DNA of 47,602 nucleotides from an uncultured Clostridia bacterium (GTDB lineage Bacteria > Bacillota > Clostridia > Christensenellales > Borkfalkiaceae): contig CALVUL010000035.1 in NCBI GenBank assembly GCA_944363555.1, positions 1 to 47,602 of the forward strand, written 5' to 3'. Position 1 is the stretch's first letter; each line of letters starts with the position of its first letter. The notes beneath the pieces were generated by a model. That model saw only the letters and a list, made by a program, of their open reading frames with translations, did no database searches and had not been told where the DNA came from. Positions 6,278-47,586 of this stretch are shown here, piece by piece. The position numbers and the translations under genes are program-made.

Positions 6278-6808
6278 TCAGAGAAACGCGGATAATATTT
6301 TATACGCGCCGAGGGCGAAGAGCAGAACGGAGGCCGCCGTTTTCGCGCCTTTCGTTCCGGACGGCGCGAAACGTTCGGAAAGAAAGGCGCCCGCGAGGAC
6401 GGCTGCGAAATGCGCCGCGGCGATGACGAGCGCCGAAACGATCGCGCCGTAGCCCATCATCGTAAGCGACAGCGTGGCGGCGGCGCCGTCCGCGCCGACG
6501 GCGAGCCCGACGACTGCGCCGCGTACGGCGTCGCTGCGGCCCTTTGCCGGCGGTTCCCCTTCGGAGAAGAGGTTGTATGCGCCCGCGGCGGCGAGAATGA
6601 TCCCGCCGATCAGGGCAACTTCTTCGGCGAAGAGATCGGAAAGCGCGCTGCCGAGCAGCCCCGCCGCGAGGCACAACAGCAAAACGGTCGGACAGATCCC
6701 CGCGAGCAGCGGGGCTTTTTTTCCGCCGCCGAGCGACATGGAAAATCCGCAGAAAAACGCGTCCGCGCTCACCGTGAGCGCCGTGGCGAAGAGGAAGAAA
6801 TCGTTCAT
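6278..6808 (-). CDS. MntP/YtaF-like small multi-pass membrane transporter
   Basis: About 176 residues with six hydrophobic segments in two similar halves. The first helix carries LTVSADAFFCGFSMSLGG and the fourth carries GLAVGADGAAATLSL. This acidic residue in helices 1 and 4 is the pattern of the MntP (manganese efflux) and YtaF families, so divalent-cation export is the best guess; the family split is not certain. The ATG at 6808 is the start favoured by alignment to these families, although no Shine-Dalgarno is visible. An upstream in-frame GTG (6853) would add 15 basic residues. The gene is isolated and convergent with ysxC. A terminator-like hairpin lies immediately upstream of the start. 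Confidence 0.7.
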   Translation of the reverse strand: MNDFFLFATALTVSADAFFCGFSMSLGGGKKAPLLAGICPTVLLLCLAAGLLGSALSDLFAEEVALIGGIILAAAGAYNLFSEGEPPAKGRSDAVRGAVVGLAVGADGAAATLSLTMMGYGAIVSALVIAAAHFAAVLAGAFLSERFAPSGTKGAKTAASVLLFALGAYKILSAFL

Positions 6809-42936: not shown

Positions 42937-44292
42937 ATGATTGACAAAATTAACGCAACGCTTTACCGTCTGGCGGGAAAATTACATAAGGATTTATACA
43001 TTGTCGGCGGGCTGGTGCGCAATTTTCTGATCGACGGGAGCGTAGGCGGCGATTACGATCTGGCGTCGGCAAACACGGCGGAGGAACTGGAAGGCGCGCT
43101 TTCCGCGCTGGGGCTGAAGCCCGCCGCCGTCTATAAGCGCACGGGCACGGTGATGTTCCGCCTGCCCGACGGGCAGCATTGCGAGCACACCACTTTCCGC
43201 GCCGAGGAGTACGGCGCGGGCGGAGCGCATACCCCCGAACGCACGTATTTTACCGAGGACATCGGGGAGGACGCCCGCCGCAGGGATTTTAAGTGCAACG
43301 CCGTGTATTATAACGTGAAAAAGGCGGCGTTCGCCGATCCGCTGGGGGGCGTGGAGGATATTCGGGATCGCAGGATCGATACCGTCGTCAGTCCGGAAGA
43401 GGTGTTCAGGGTGGACGGGCTCAGGCTGCTGCGCCTCTGCCGCTTTTCCGCGGAACTCGGTTTCGCGCCGTCGGAAGGCGCGGTGGAAGGGGCGCGCGCG
43501 CATTGCCGCAATATCCGCGATATTTCCGCGGAGCGCGTTTTCGACGAGATGAAGAAGATGCTTTCCGCCGATACAAAATATCCTTTTTCCGATCCCCGCG
43601 GGCATTATTTTGCCTTTAAGCTGTGCCACAGGATCGGCGTGCTGGATCTCGTCATGCCGGAACTTACCGCGGGGGACGGCATGCCGCAGCGCGCGGATTT
43701 CCACGATTACGACGTGCTGGAACATTCCTTCCGCACCCTGCTTTACGCCGATAAAAGCGTGCGGCTCGCCGCGTTGCTGCACGATGTGGGCAAACCCTAT
43801 GCCATGAAGCGATACGGCGCGTATAAAACGCATAACGCCGAAGGGGAGCGCATCGCGCGGGACATTCTGACCCGCCTCAAGGCGCCGAAAAGCGTCGTCG
43901 AGGAGGTGTGCGCCCTTACGTATCTGCACATGGCGGATCTCGACTTAAAAATGAAGGAAGGCAAAGTGCGGCTGTTCATGGCGGAGCACGAAAACCTGCT
44001 GAGTAAACTCTTCCTTTTGAAACAGGCGGATTATTCCGCCTGCAAGGACGATCTTTCCCCCGCGCCCACCGTCGTCAAATGGAAAAACATCCTCGAAAAG
44101 ATGCGGGCGGAAGGCGCGCCGCTCACGAAAAGGGCGCTCGCCGTTAACGGCGGCGATCTGGCGGCGATCGGGTACAGGGGGGAGGAGATCGGGAAAGAAC
44201 TCGACGAACTGTTCCGCGCCGCCGTGCTCGACGGGCGGCTCAACGACAGGGCGAAACTGATAAAGATCGCCCGCTGCCGGAAGGAGAAATAG
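42937..44292 (+). CDS. cca: CCA tRNA nucleotidyltransferase / polyA-polymerase family with HD domain
   Basis: 451-residue class II nucleotidyltransferase. The head domain has IVGGLVRNFLI and the metal-binding DYD (GGDYDLAS), then RRRDFKCNAVYYN and VDGLRLLRLCRFSAELGF, matching the CCA-enzyme motifs that bind tRNA and select nucleotides. A C-terminal HD domain follows (LAALLHDVGKP; THNAEGERIARDIL). Since tRNA genes here encode CCA, repair is its likely role. No Shine-Dalgarno is present and the promoter -10 ends six bases upstream, pointing to a leaderless mRNA. Confidence 0.93.
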   Translation: MIDKINATLYRLAGKLHKDLYIVGGLVRNFLIDGSVGGDYDLASANTAEELEGALSALGLKPAAVYKRTGTVMFRLPDGQHCEHTTFRAEEYGAGGAHTPERTYFTEDIGEDARRRDFKCNAVYYNVKKAAFADPLGGVEDIRDRRIDTVVSPEEVFRVDGLRLLRLCRFSAELGFAPSEGAVEGARAHCRNIRDISAERVFDEMKKMLSADTKYPFSDPRGHYFAFKLCHRIGVLDLVMPELTAGDGMPQRADFHDYDVLEHSFRTLLYADKSVRLAALLHDVGKPYAMKRYGAYKTHNAEGERIARDILTRLKAPKSVVEEVCALTYLHMADLDLKMKEGKVRLFMAEHENLLSKLFLLKQADYSACKDDLSPAPTVVKWKNILEKMRAEGAPLTKRALAVNGGDLAAIGYRGEEIGKELDELFRAAVLDGRLNDRAKLIKIARCRKEK

Positions 44293-44334
44293 GGGAAAGT
44301 CTCTTCCTCCCGCGGCGCAACAGGGAAAAATCGT

Positions 44335-44363
44335 TTGCAATCCCGCCGCGAATGATGTATAAT
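44335..44363 (+). promoter_or_regulatory. Promoter of the repeat protein gene
   Basis: TTGCAA (44335-44340), 17-base spacer, perfect TATAAT (44358-44363). Confidence 0.88.
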
Positions 44364-44416
44364 GATGAATGTAATATCGAAGAAGGAATATTCAGACAGG
44401 GAGATTCGGTTTCGTT

Positions 44417-46492
44417 ATGTTGGGTAAAATTTTCAAATATGCGCTGGTCATTCTGCTGGGGATGATCCTCGGCGTCGGCGCGACGGTCGGCGCGGTGTAT
44501 CTGATCGTCACCAAGACCAAGGTGGGCACGATCACGGAAAAGGTGCCTTCCTTAAATCAGTATATCGGCGAATCCCTCGGCGATTACACCGTGCTGGAAA
44601 TCGTGGAGGTCCTCGGCGCGCCCGATACCACCATCGGCACGTATACGGAGTATTTCCCTTTCCTCGACGACGCCCTTACCGGTCTCGTCGATTCGGAGGA
44701 ACTCAAACAGTTCGCCACGTTCGATCTCGATAAACTCAAGACGATGACGTTTTCGCAGGTGGGCTCGGATCTCGCGTCCGTCGTCAGCGTGACGGCGTCC
44801 CTCGATTCGCTTTCCTCTTCCATGAACTTCACGCTGCCCGATATGCCGGTATTCACCTCCGCGGAAAATTACGTGAAGATCACGAACGACCAATTCGTCG
44901 TCACCAATCTCTATTATAAGGATAAAACGGCGGAGATCTATTACGACGTTTCTTATACCGCCCCCGATCCGGACGTTCCCGAAGGCGGGGCGGAAACGCC
45001 GGCGGAAACCGGCGCCGGCGAACCCGTTTACGCCCGCGCTTACGACGACGAGGGCAACCTTCTCGCCGCGGCGGAAGGGAAACCGCTGTATTACCGCGCG
45101 GAGGGCATAACGTCCCTGCCGGTAACCGACGCCGTTACCGCCCTTTCCGGCGTGTTTTCGGATGTCGATTCGATGACCATCGGCGATCTCGACGAGAATT
45201 TCGGGATCGACGTCATCGGGGAAGATCCCGACAGCCTGATCGCAAAACTGCTTTCGCCTTCCGACGAAATCTCCGATCTCGGCGTGGTGGAGGAGCGGAT
45301 CGACGCGCTGCGCCTCGTCGAAGATCTGGGCTTTACCAACATCGAGGGCACGGTGCTCGGCGAGATCCTCCCGAACGAGGAGGACCGCACGGTCGGCGCG
45401 CTGAAAACCATGCCTGTCGACGAGCGCATCGAAAATCTGCGCATCGATCAGATCATCGATGTTACGGAGGATAGTTCGCTGATCATGAAAGCGCTTGCGG
45501 ACACCACCGTCGGCGGGTTGGACGCGAAGATCAAAACGCTCACGGTAAGCGACGTAACCGAGATCACGGAGGATAGTTCCGCGATCATGAAATCGCTCGC
45601 CGATACAACCATCGAAGATCTGGACGCGAAGATCAAAACGCTTACGGTAAGCGACGTAACCGAGATCACGGAAAACAGTTCGCCGATCATGAAAGCGCTT
45701 GCCGCTACCGCCATCGAAGAGCTGGATGCGAGGATCAAGACGCTCACGGTCGGGGAAGTCGTGGAGATCGACGAAACCAGCGAGCCCATTCTGCGCGCGC
45801 TGCAGAACGCCGAGATCACCTCTCTGAACGACAGCATCAAGGACCTTACGGTTGCCGACGTCATGAGCGCGGAGCAGATCGAAAACAACAAAATTCTGAA
45901 ATGGCTGAGCGATAAGAACGCGAAGATCGCCGCGATCGGGGACGAGATCAACGCCATGCCGCTGGATGTGCTCGTGGAAAAAGGAACCAACCCCATTACC
46001 GACGCCCTCATCGAAAAGGAGGCGACCGTCGTCAATCTGGGAGAGGTCATCAACACCCTCACCGTCTCGGAGATCTACGATACCGGCGCGTTCGTGAAGA
46101 TCGGCGGCGGCGAAGGGGAAACGCCTTATGACGAAACCATGCGCTGCTTCGAGTTTACGGACGGCGTTTATCGGGAAACGGCGTACGCGGCGGATAAGGA
46201 ACTGTATCAGATCAAAAAGACTTCCGGCATCTGGCTGATCACGCTGTACGACAAGGCGGAAGGCGGCGCGGCGTATACGCCGGTGGCGGATGAGCCCGCG
46301 CTCGTCGACCTCGCCGATTATCTCCCCGCGCGGCTGATGGGGGAAACGACGGGTCTGGGCGCCTGCTCGCTGCAGGAACTTTACGAAGTCGGTTTCATTT
46401 CCGCGCAGCCCGACGAAAGCGTGCGGGATCTCGCCCTGAACGACGTCGTTTCCCGTTTCGGGCAGGCGGGAATTGCGGAAAACGCGGCGTGA
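44417..46492 (+). CDS. Membrane-anchored extracellular protein with 34-residue tandem repeats, unknown function
   Basis: 691 residues. One N-terminal hydrophobic helix (about 7-33) anchors the protein, and the rest is predicted outside the cell. Residues 40-190 form a first domain; an acidic Pro/Glu-rich linker (PDPDVPEGGAETPAETGAG) follows. From about residue 351 four head-to-tail repeats of 34 residues appear (EDSSAIMKSLADTTIEDLDA, then KIKTLTVSDVTEIT), with more divergent versions before and after. The regular helix/short strand rhythm suggests a solenoid or stalk. The final 130 residues form another domain (PYDETMRCFEFTDGVYRETA). No catalytic motif or sorting signal. It has its own promoter, between cca and the rpsF operon. 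Confidence 0.8.
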   Translation: MLGKIFKYALVILLGMILGVGATVGAVYLIVTKTKVGTITEKVPSLNQYIGESLGDYTVLEIVEVLGAPDTTIGTYTEYFPFLDDALTGLVDSEELKQFATFDLDKLKTMTFSQVGSDLASVVSVTASLDSLSSSMNFTLPDMPVFTSAENYVKITNDQFVVTNLYYKDKTAEIYYDVSYTAPDPDVPEGGAETPAETGAGEPVYARAYDDEGNLLAAAEGKPLYYRAEGITSLPVTDAVTALSGVFSDVDSMTIGDLDENFGIDVIGEDPDSLIAKLLSPSDEISDLGVVEERIDALRLVEDLGFTNIEGTVLGEILPNEEDRTVGALKTMPVDERIENLRIDQIIDVTEDSSLIMKALADTTVGGLDAKIKTLTVSDVTEITEDSSAIMKSLADTTIEDLDAKIKTLTVSDVTEITENSSPIMKALAATAIEELDARIKTLTVGEVVEIDETSEPILRALQNAEITSLNDSIKDLTVADVMSAEQIENNKILKWLSDKNAKIAAIGDEINAMPLDVLVEKGTNPITDALIEKEATVVNLGEVINTLTVSEIYDTGAFVKIGGGEGETPYDETMRCFEFTDGVYRETAYAADKELYQIKKTSGIWLITLYDKAEGGAAYTPVADEPALVDLADYLPARLMGETTGLGACSLQELYEVGFISAQPDESVRDLALNDVVSRFGQAGIAENAA
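45467..45874 (+). repeat. Four tandem 102-bp repeats inside the anchored protein gene
   Basis: Units start at 45467, 45569, 45671 and 45773, each exactly 102 bases. Units 1 and 2 are nearly identical over their second half; units 3 and 4 diverge progressively. Confidence 0.93.
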
Positions 46493-46516
46493 GCGGCGCA
46501 AACTTCAATAAATAAG

Positions 46517-46545
46517 TTGACAAAGAAAAGATAATTTGCTAAAAT
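46517..46545 (+). promoter_or_regulatory. Promoter of rpsF-ssb-rpsR
   Basis: TTGACA (46517-46522), 17-base spacer, TAAAAT (46540-46545). Confidence 0.9.
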
Positions 46546-46601: not shown

Positions 46602-46883
46602 ATGACGAAATACGATATGCTTTACATTTTGGCTCCGGAGCTCGAAGAAGAAGCGAGAGAAGTCATTATCAAAAAGTTCGAGGATCTGGTTACCGCCAAC
46701 GGCGGCGTCGTCGAAAAGACCGACAGGTGGGGCATGAAAAAACTGCAGTACCCCATCAACTATAAATCCGAAGGCTTTTATGTGGTAATGACCTTTGAAA
46801 GCGACAAGAACTTCGTTGTGGAACTGAAACGCGTTGTGGGCATTACGGACGGGATCATGAGAAGACTGATCACCAAGGCTTAA
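46602..46883 (+). CDS. rpsF: 30S ribosomal protein S6
   Basis: 93-residue small-subunit protein that pairs with S18. The S6 fold is recognisable from KYDMLYILAPELEEEAREVI, TDRWGMKKLQYPI and the terminal GIMRRLITK. GGGAGGT site upstream. First gene of the rpsF-ssb-rpsR operon. Confidence 0.97.
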   Translation: MTKYDMLYILAPELEEEAREVIIKKFEDLVTANGGVVEKTDRWGMKKLQYPINYKSEGFYVVMTFESDKNFVVELKRVVGITDGIMRRLITKA

Positions 46884-46897
46884 ACGGGAGAGAAACG

Positions 46898-47314
46898 ATG
46901 AACAAAGTATTACTGATCGGGAATCTCACGAGGGATCCGGAACTTTCCGAAACGTCGGGCGGGGTGGCGGTCTGCCACTTTTCCGTGGCGGTTACGCGCG
47001 ATTTCGCTTCGGCGGACGGCACCCGCGAAACGGACTTTTTCAACGTTACGGTGTGGCGCGGAAGGGCGGAAACCTGCGGGAAATACCTTAAAAAAGGCAA
47101 TAAAGTTGCCGTGATGGGCAGTTTGCAGAACCGTTCGTATGACGATAAGGACGGCATCAGAAGAACGGTTACGGAAGTCATCGCCAGCGACGTGGAGTTT
47201 TTGACCCCGAAGAACGCGCAGGGGGGCGAACCCTTCGCGGAAGAGGTCGTGGCGGTAAAGAAACAGCGCCCGCAGCTCGAGGCGCTTGACGACGACAACG
47301 ATTTGCCGTTCTGA
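46898..47314 (+). CDS. ssb: Single-stranded DNA-binding protein
   Basis: 138-residue SSB: OB fold opening [16 protein letters not shown], with [12 protein letters not shown] and [16 protein letters not shown], and the conserved acidic tip DDDNDLPF that recruits repair and replication proteins. The linker between OB fold and tip is short. It sits between rpsF and rpsR as usual. Confidence 0.97.
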
Positions 47315-47334
47315 TTTTTCAAAGGAGTAAAAAA

Positions 47335-47586
47335 ATGGAAGAAAATAAGACTGCGGTCAAAAAGAATGGAAAGAGGATGCCCAGAAAGAAGGTTTGCGCG
47401 TTCTGTCAGGGCAAGGTGGAAAACATCGATTACAAAGATGTCGCCACGCTGAAAAAGTACGTATCGGAAAACGGAAAGATCCTGCCGCGCAGGATGACCG
47501 GCGTTTGCGCCAAGCACCAGCGCGTGCTTGCCACCGCCGTGAAACGCGCGCGGATCACCGATCTGCTCCCTTTCAAAGGCGAATAA
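47335..47586 (+). CDS. rpsR: 30S ribosomal protein S18, zinc-binding form
   Basis: 83-residue S18 with [20 protein letters not shown] and the basic C-terminus. It keeps a C-x2-C (VCAFC) and a C-x2-H (GVCAKH), so this is the zinc-ribbon version of S18. AAAGGAG precedes the ATG. Last complete gene of the window. Confidence 0.96.

Follow-up and report, generated by a model that had tools for sequence, protein, structure and literature searches.

Repeats of 34 residues with a helical fold are known from the TPR and TAL-effector proteins, and the protein described here resembles both in the length of its unit and in a predicted, mostly helical solenoid. The TPR and TAL-effector unit is a two-helix hairpin, whereas the unit considered here is predicted to hold three short helices and two beta bridges and matches neither in Pfam. 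In functional kind, the closest proteins that we met are Giant1-5 of Apilactobacillus kunkeei, which are reported to be very long extracellular proteins, predicted to be elongated and encoded in a fixed gene cluster of a small genome (PMC12863079). Great length, an elongated prediction and a fixed locus are common to both; however, Giant1-4 are described as carrying, at the N-terminus, a beta-solenoid akin to serine-rich repeat proteins (PMC12863079), whereas our protein is modelled as mostly short helices and single bridges, without a structural match. A further point of reference is CvpA (Colicin_V, PF02674), likewise a membrane protein, whose gene is adjacent to that of the repeat protein in two related families; the repeat protein itself has no PF02674 match and is a possible partner of CvpA, not a member of its family. 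Resistance to deoxycholate requires cvpA in EHEC and in two species of Vibrio (PMC6705877), and cvpA insertions in Agrobacterium are synthetically lethal with the loss of LD-transpeptidase groups (PMC11527210).

The stretch of DNA analysed here (the window, 47,602 nt from an uncultured member of the Clostridia) encodes the repeat protein in an ATG-initiated open frame of 691 aa at 44417-46492 on the plus strand, exactly where the initial annotation had placed an anchored extracellular protein with exact 102-bp tandem repeats. The frame, the four units, the anchor and the neighbouring genes of that description all hold; the word "exact" does not. An antisense open frame of 649 aa (44552-46501, minus strand) overlies the gene and is probably a shadow of its codon usage, because the homologues belong to the plus-strand protein. 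The features of the region are as follows.

42937-44292, plus strand: CCA tRNA nucleotidyltransferase-like gene, upstream neighbour (loci compared)
44335-44363, plus strand: promoter-like site TTGCAA-17-TATAAT, 5' of the repeat-protein gene (consensus match only)
44417-46492, plus strand: repeat-protein gene, 691 aa (open frame; homologues at the equivalent position)
44420-44512, plus strand: N-terminal membrane helix, aa 2-32 (predicted helix 2-32; hydropathy)
44519-44830, plus strand: first run of bridge-plus-helix elements, aa 35-138 (prediction)
44864-45103, plus strand: beta-strand insertion in the solenoid, aa 150-229 (prediction; pLDDT <50 at aa 189-199)
45464-45565, plus strand: 34-aa unit 1, aa 350-383 (unit search, DNA comparison)
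45566-45667, plus strand: 34-aa unit 2, aa 384-417 (87/102 nt against unit 1)
45668-45769, plus strand: 34-aa unit 3, aa 418-451 (79/102 nt against unit 2)
45770-45871, plus strand: 34-aa unit 4, aa 452-485, older (counterpart in congener G005, 76/102 nt)
45881-46084, plus strand: two degenerate units, aa 489-517 and 524-556 (scores 7.2 and 14.9 bits)
46082-46489, plus strand: conserved C-terminal cap, aa 556-691 (motif G-x-W-x-x-L-L, then L-x-x-L-x-x-x-G)
46517-46545, plus strand: promoter-like site TTGACA-17-TAAAAT, 5' of rpsF (consensus match only)
46602-47586, plus strand: rpsF, ssb and rpsR, conserved downstream neighbours (loci compared)

The four units lie in register at aa 350-485 (45464-45871) and are of constant length, as had been read from the letters, and the repetition reaches past them into the weaker units at aa 489-517 and 524-556. 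At the DNA level, TRF reports an array at 45464-45750 with a period of 102, 2.8 copies and a score of 404; of the four arrays that TRF detects in the window, none scores higher. Identity is 87/102 nt between units 1 and 2, 78/102 between units 1 and 3, 79/102 between units 2 and 3, and 46-53/102 between unit 4 and the other three; the 15 differences between units 1 and 2 amount to seven silent and five changed codons. At a shift of 102 the best 102-nt self-match reaches 90/102 and no identical run is longer than 29 nt, so that the repeats are similar but not exact. Because 500 codon shuffles of the gene, compared over all shifts of 60-300 nt in steps of 3, never gave a best match above 56/102, a chance origin of the DNA repeats is excluded. 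Collapse of the array during assembly was considered and is unlikely, since no identical run at a shift of 102 exceeds 29 nt.

In the window protein every Pfam and NCBIfam family stays below its cut-off (three weak Pfam matches, E 0.1-0.27), a PDB sequence search returned nothing below E 0.78, and a PHROGs search with this protein and two relatives gave no usable match. In the 21-row alignment, single rows matched TrkA_C (3.3e-5), SporV_AA (6.1e-5), chaper_lep (7.7e-6) and FlgEFG (0.0056), and these matches were set aside because they are common to none of the other rows; SporV_AA also matched the window protein across the repeats at E 0.1. Several named kinds of protein were considered and rejected. 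No TPR family was found in Pfam (window protein, E up to 1; 21 rows, E up to 0.01), and a TPR needs two antiparallel helices per 34 residues where the modelled unit combines three short helices with two beta bridges. The TAL-effector repeat gave no PDB sequence match and no chain with Z>=2 among the 718 Foldseek picks that were re-aligned. Neither sortase-anchor nor SLH families appeared in Pfam or NCBIfam across the 21 rows, and the sole membrane segment is N-terminal; a beta-solenoid giant adhesin was rejected on a predicted secondary structure that is mostly helical. The Pfam and NCBIfam scans likewise returned no cell-wall-binding or adhesin domain and no partner for the cap, and a literature search of titles and abstract openings found no description of this protein family. 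The earlier statement that the protein has no known domain is thus correct as far as the searched sequence and structure libraries extend.

AlphaFold2 modelled the whole protein with pLDDT 80.9 and pTM 0.40, and aa 340-691 with pLDDT 89.7 and pTM 0.62 (89.1-89.7 over five models), values to be read alongside the low whole-model pTM, shallow alignments (21 and 15 rows) and possible over-confidence on repeats. In the whole model, DSSP assigns 24 elements, each a single beta bridge plus a helix, all of them along the outer part, and the predicted spacing of 22/12 in the array corresponds to two elements per 34-residue unit. Most of these elements carry the motif [TL]-[TPA]-[IV]-x-x-[LV]. Counted by sequence alone, a similar motif occurs 16 times in the window protein against a maximum of 13 in 500 shuffles, and the count also exceeds every shuffle in G051, G023 and G038, making four of the five genus members with the window; in G005 it is 9, below the shuffle maximum of 11. 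Prediction of the array and its flanks, which the initial annotation had proposed as a check, therefore yields an outer part that is predicted to be one continuous solenoid ending in a conserved cap. Foldseek searches with the whole model (best E 1.9 in the PDB and 1.2 among viral structures; nothing at Z>=2 among 471 re-aligned chains) and with aa 340-691 (best E 0.77 in the PDB; nothing at Z>=2 among 718) found no relative, the re-alignment being limited to Foldseek's own picks, so that a fold overlooked by Foldseek could not surface.

The window protein has a single strong hydrophobic stretch, which is N-terminal (hydropathy 2.42 at aa 9-27 and at most 1.09 elsewhere). Charge was scored in 26 proteins, the window's and 25 relatives, with eight incomplete or uncertain ones excluded: the inner flank of the helix is net positive and the outer part net negative in all 26, and the outer part of the window protein carries a net charge of -78. 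Of the two flanks, the inner carries more positive charge in 18 of the 26, the same in four and less in four; the window protein is one of the ties (+2/+2), and the excess is clearest in relatives with a long N-terminal tail. Judged from charge, the bulk of the repeat protein probably faces outward, as the description of an anchored, extracellular protein had supposed. One anchor, an array of variable length and a conserved far end are all present, as expected of an elongated membrane-anchored stalk.

Searched with the single protein (E up to 1e-5), 104 of 301 genomes of the window's taxonomic family were matched, its own included; the gene occurs in all five genomes of the genus, and with the 21-row profile, matches were obtained in 81 of the order's 297 genomes at 1e-5 and in 8 of the class's 391 at 1e-6, all eight within the order, these match rates being lower bounds. 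Within the searches made, the repeat protein is a family confined to one order of Clostridia. Among 20 genomes of the window's family that gave no single-protein match, seven hold a profile-positive ORF before rpsF and four more a long unlabelled open ORF in the same place, and the remaining nine have no such ORF there. In three of the nine (G014, G024 and G063, at loci L094, L099 and L105 respectively) the CCA gene directly adjoins rpsF at a distance of 131-360 nt, and a genome-wide profile search of these three found no match. Because the gene is absent from G014 and present in its congener G031, it has been lost or gained and is probably dispensable, and its absence from the locus in some relatives argues that the function of the protein is probably not essential. 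Within the CCA-rpsF interval of L105, at about 6380-6755, lies a stretch whose ends resemble a long inverted repeat by eye, perhaps a small inserted element.

The position of the gene is conserved on its downstream side. Across 22 homologue loci of the window's family (20 chosen from the family matches plus two congener records), rpsF-ssb-rpsR follows in 20, and the gap between the repeat gene and rpsF is 54-226 nt in 19 loci and 883 nt in L052. In L052 (2928-3810) the two genes are separated by an open frame of 252 aa whose motifs look similar and which is perhaps a broken-off end of the repeat gene. Upstream, a CCA tRNA nucleotidyltransferase gene is found in 15 of the 22 loci, several of the stretches being incomplete. 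It directly adjoins the repeat gene (17-148 nt) in six of the 15, as it does in the window (124 nt), and is separated from it by 1.2-1.8 kb in the other nine, which include all four congeners. An ORF of about 376-406 aa, which by eye we take to be RmuC-like, fills this interval in seven of the nine; the intervening ORF of L045 and L047, unlike those seven, is left unnamed. In the congeners (L031-L034) the extra frame measures about 376-390 aa and looks RmuC-like by eye, the corresponding interval of the window being 44293-44416. The placement between two housekeeping loci, as first noted, is therefore correct for the window, and its downstream half is kept in 20 of the 22 loci compared.

Members of the family differ widely in length. 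Complete copies fetched range from 381 aa (L130, family f8) to 10,218 aa (G013, in the window's family), a 609-aa homologue at L037 has eight strong units, and in an alignment of the window protein with 20 relatives the N- and C-terminal parts align while the middle is very different in length. The five species of the genus have proteins of 691, 562, 559, 653 and 657 aa, with alignment gaps chiefly within the array; the comparison of repeats among related genomes that had been called for thus finds differences between species, mainly in the array. It is important to note that such species-level differences demonstrate evolvability of length, not its functional importance. Units 1-3 of the window match no in-frame 34-codon stretch of the four congeners at more than 66/102 nt, and unit 4 matches one unit of G005 at 76/102. 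Because units 1-3 are closest to one another (78-87/102), the extra units of the window probably arose after its split from G005, although not very recently. Of the recent expansion that had been proposed, the lineage-specific origin stands; a very recent date, with 15 of 102 nt differing between units 1 and 2, does not.

Comparison with other relatives points to expansion elsewhere. The arrays of G023 and G038 (L031 and L032) have a period of 40-41 aa, which suggests a separate expansion within the genus. The G013 protein is encoded beside rpsF by one open frame at roughly 87.9-118.6 kb of G013:C21 (L182, L183), begins with a membrane helix and ends in a C-terminus like that of other family members, and at 10,218 aa ranks, to our knowledge, with the longest proteins of any bacterium. 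Modules of about 95-100 aa make up its array, the most similar copies agreeing at 98/100 positions by shift identity, and only two 34-aa units score above 8 bits, both near the C-terminus. These near-identical modules indicate that the family does expand by duplication. On its far side the giant gene has a neighbour that looks lipid-kinase-like by eye, and another very long relative, an open frame of 4,899 aa (L184, G328:C15), occurs in a different family of the order.

Elsewhere in the order the repeat gene has a different neighbour. In families f3 (14 loci) and f24 (17 loci), a cvpA-like gene lies directly upstream on the same strand in 31 of the 31 loci fetched, at a distance of 3-89 nt in all but one, where the gap is 220 nt. 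Because 11 of the 31 upstream genes served, together with two genes of the window genome, to build the CvpA profile, 20 loci form the independent count. A Pfam scan of ten upstream genes matched nine to PF02674 at E <1e-5, including that of L146, which lies slightly below the curated cut-off; the upstream gene of L135 reached 0.0025 only. No cvpA was found in 42 fetched stretches of the window's family, of which 20 had been selected as rpsF loci, nor in nine stretches of families f8, f18, f19, f28 and f29, among which L134 is a weak member (E 0.0048) and L142 ends upstream at a contig edge. A PF02674 match occurs in 30 of the 34 genomes where the repeat protein was matched and in 21 of the 25 where it was not, the repeat-protein calls overlooking some divergent copies. 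In the window genome cvpA lies on another contig, divergent from DUF1256, and the same arrangement recurs at L137 and L140, which are f24 and f3 loci (both names checked); this correspondence suggests that the repeat gene has moved between loci. The link between CvpA and the repeat protein is suggestive, and co-occurrence gives it no backing.

Taken together, the hydrophobic helix, the repeats, the conserved ends, the changes in length and the gene position make up an anatomy that is well supported from sequence. Our preferred reading, which we hold somewhat more readily than we doubt it, is a membrane-anchored, outward-facing solenoid that acts in the zone of the cell wall as a spacer or tether whose length can evolve. 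The single N-terminal helix would sit in the cytoplasmic membrane, with a short tail inside and the long, strongly acidic part outside; this outer part would form a solenoid of bridge and short-helix elements, two per 34-residue unit, interrupted by some beta-strand insertions and closed by the conserved cap at its far end. Units, inserted hairpins or larger modules could be gained or lost, changing the length while both ends are kept, and the solenoid would fix how far the cap stands from the membrane, lying within the cell wall or spanning it. The stalk or spacer first suggested for this protein fits the anatomy; the role itself, together with the existence and identity of a partner for the cap, is what we infer from it. 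More tentatively, the family may represent an undescribed bridge-and-short-helix solenoid acting as an order-specific membrane ruler, tuned at conserved gene positions to lengths of 381 to 10,218 residues, with CvpA as its ancestral partner and a conserved cap whose distance from the membrane is critical.

The main rival, which is compatible with the spacer reading, makes the protein an outer-side partner of a CvpA-type membrane protein in the upkeep of envelope or peptidoglycan, its length variation being tolerated drift. The invariable neighbourhood in f3 and f24 and the divergent cvpA-DUF1256 pair shared by the window genome with L137 and L140 speak for it, as do genetic studies connecting cvpA with resistance to bile salts (PMC6705877) and with LD-transpeptidase mutants (PMC11527210); however, cvpA was found in none of the 42 stretches of the window's own family and in none of the nine of five other families, and genomes with and without the repeat protein carry it about equally (30/34 against 21/25), so that we regard this role as possible but doubtful. 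In our judgement the protein is unlikely to be an adhesin or a variable antigen at the cell surface with strain-to-strain differences in repeat number. Such a protein would also be expected to face outward, as this one probably does, to be rich in repeats and to vary in length, here between species, but no adhesin, sortase-anchor or SLH family was found in Pfam or NCBIfam. Slippage at the level of strains is not favoured either, because the units have diverged (46-87/102 nt) and no identical run at a shift of 102 exceeds 29 nt. A conserved position and conserved ends are, moreover, atypical of a variable antigen.

Two other readings bear on the solenoid and on its orientation. A continuous solenoid with inserted strands, as predicted, might bind or guide a ligand such as a polysaccharide or lipid along its length, the size of the ligand setting that of the array; we found no match to solved carrier or transfer folds and no support in the gene context, and consider this quite improbable. 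That the protein is instead tethered to the membrane with its C-terminus in the cytoplasm draws on the equal flank charges of the window protein and on the four of 26 in which the outer flank is the more positive, but the opposite bias in 18 of the 26 and the very acidic remainder in every one of them make it very unlikely indeed.

A nameless, widespread protein of uncultured Clostridia gains an anatomy, a conserved gene context and a candidate partner in CvpA, itself poorly understood. Its confident model, to which the searches returned no solved relative, makes it a promising target for anyone seeking a new solenoid fold. With their natural length variants, conserved ends and clean absences, these proteins would make it possible to test directly whether it matters to a cell how long one of its surface proteins is.
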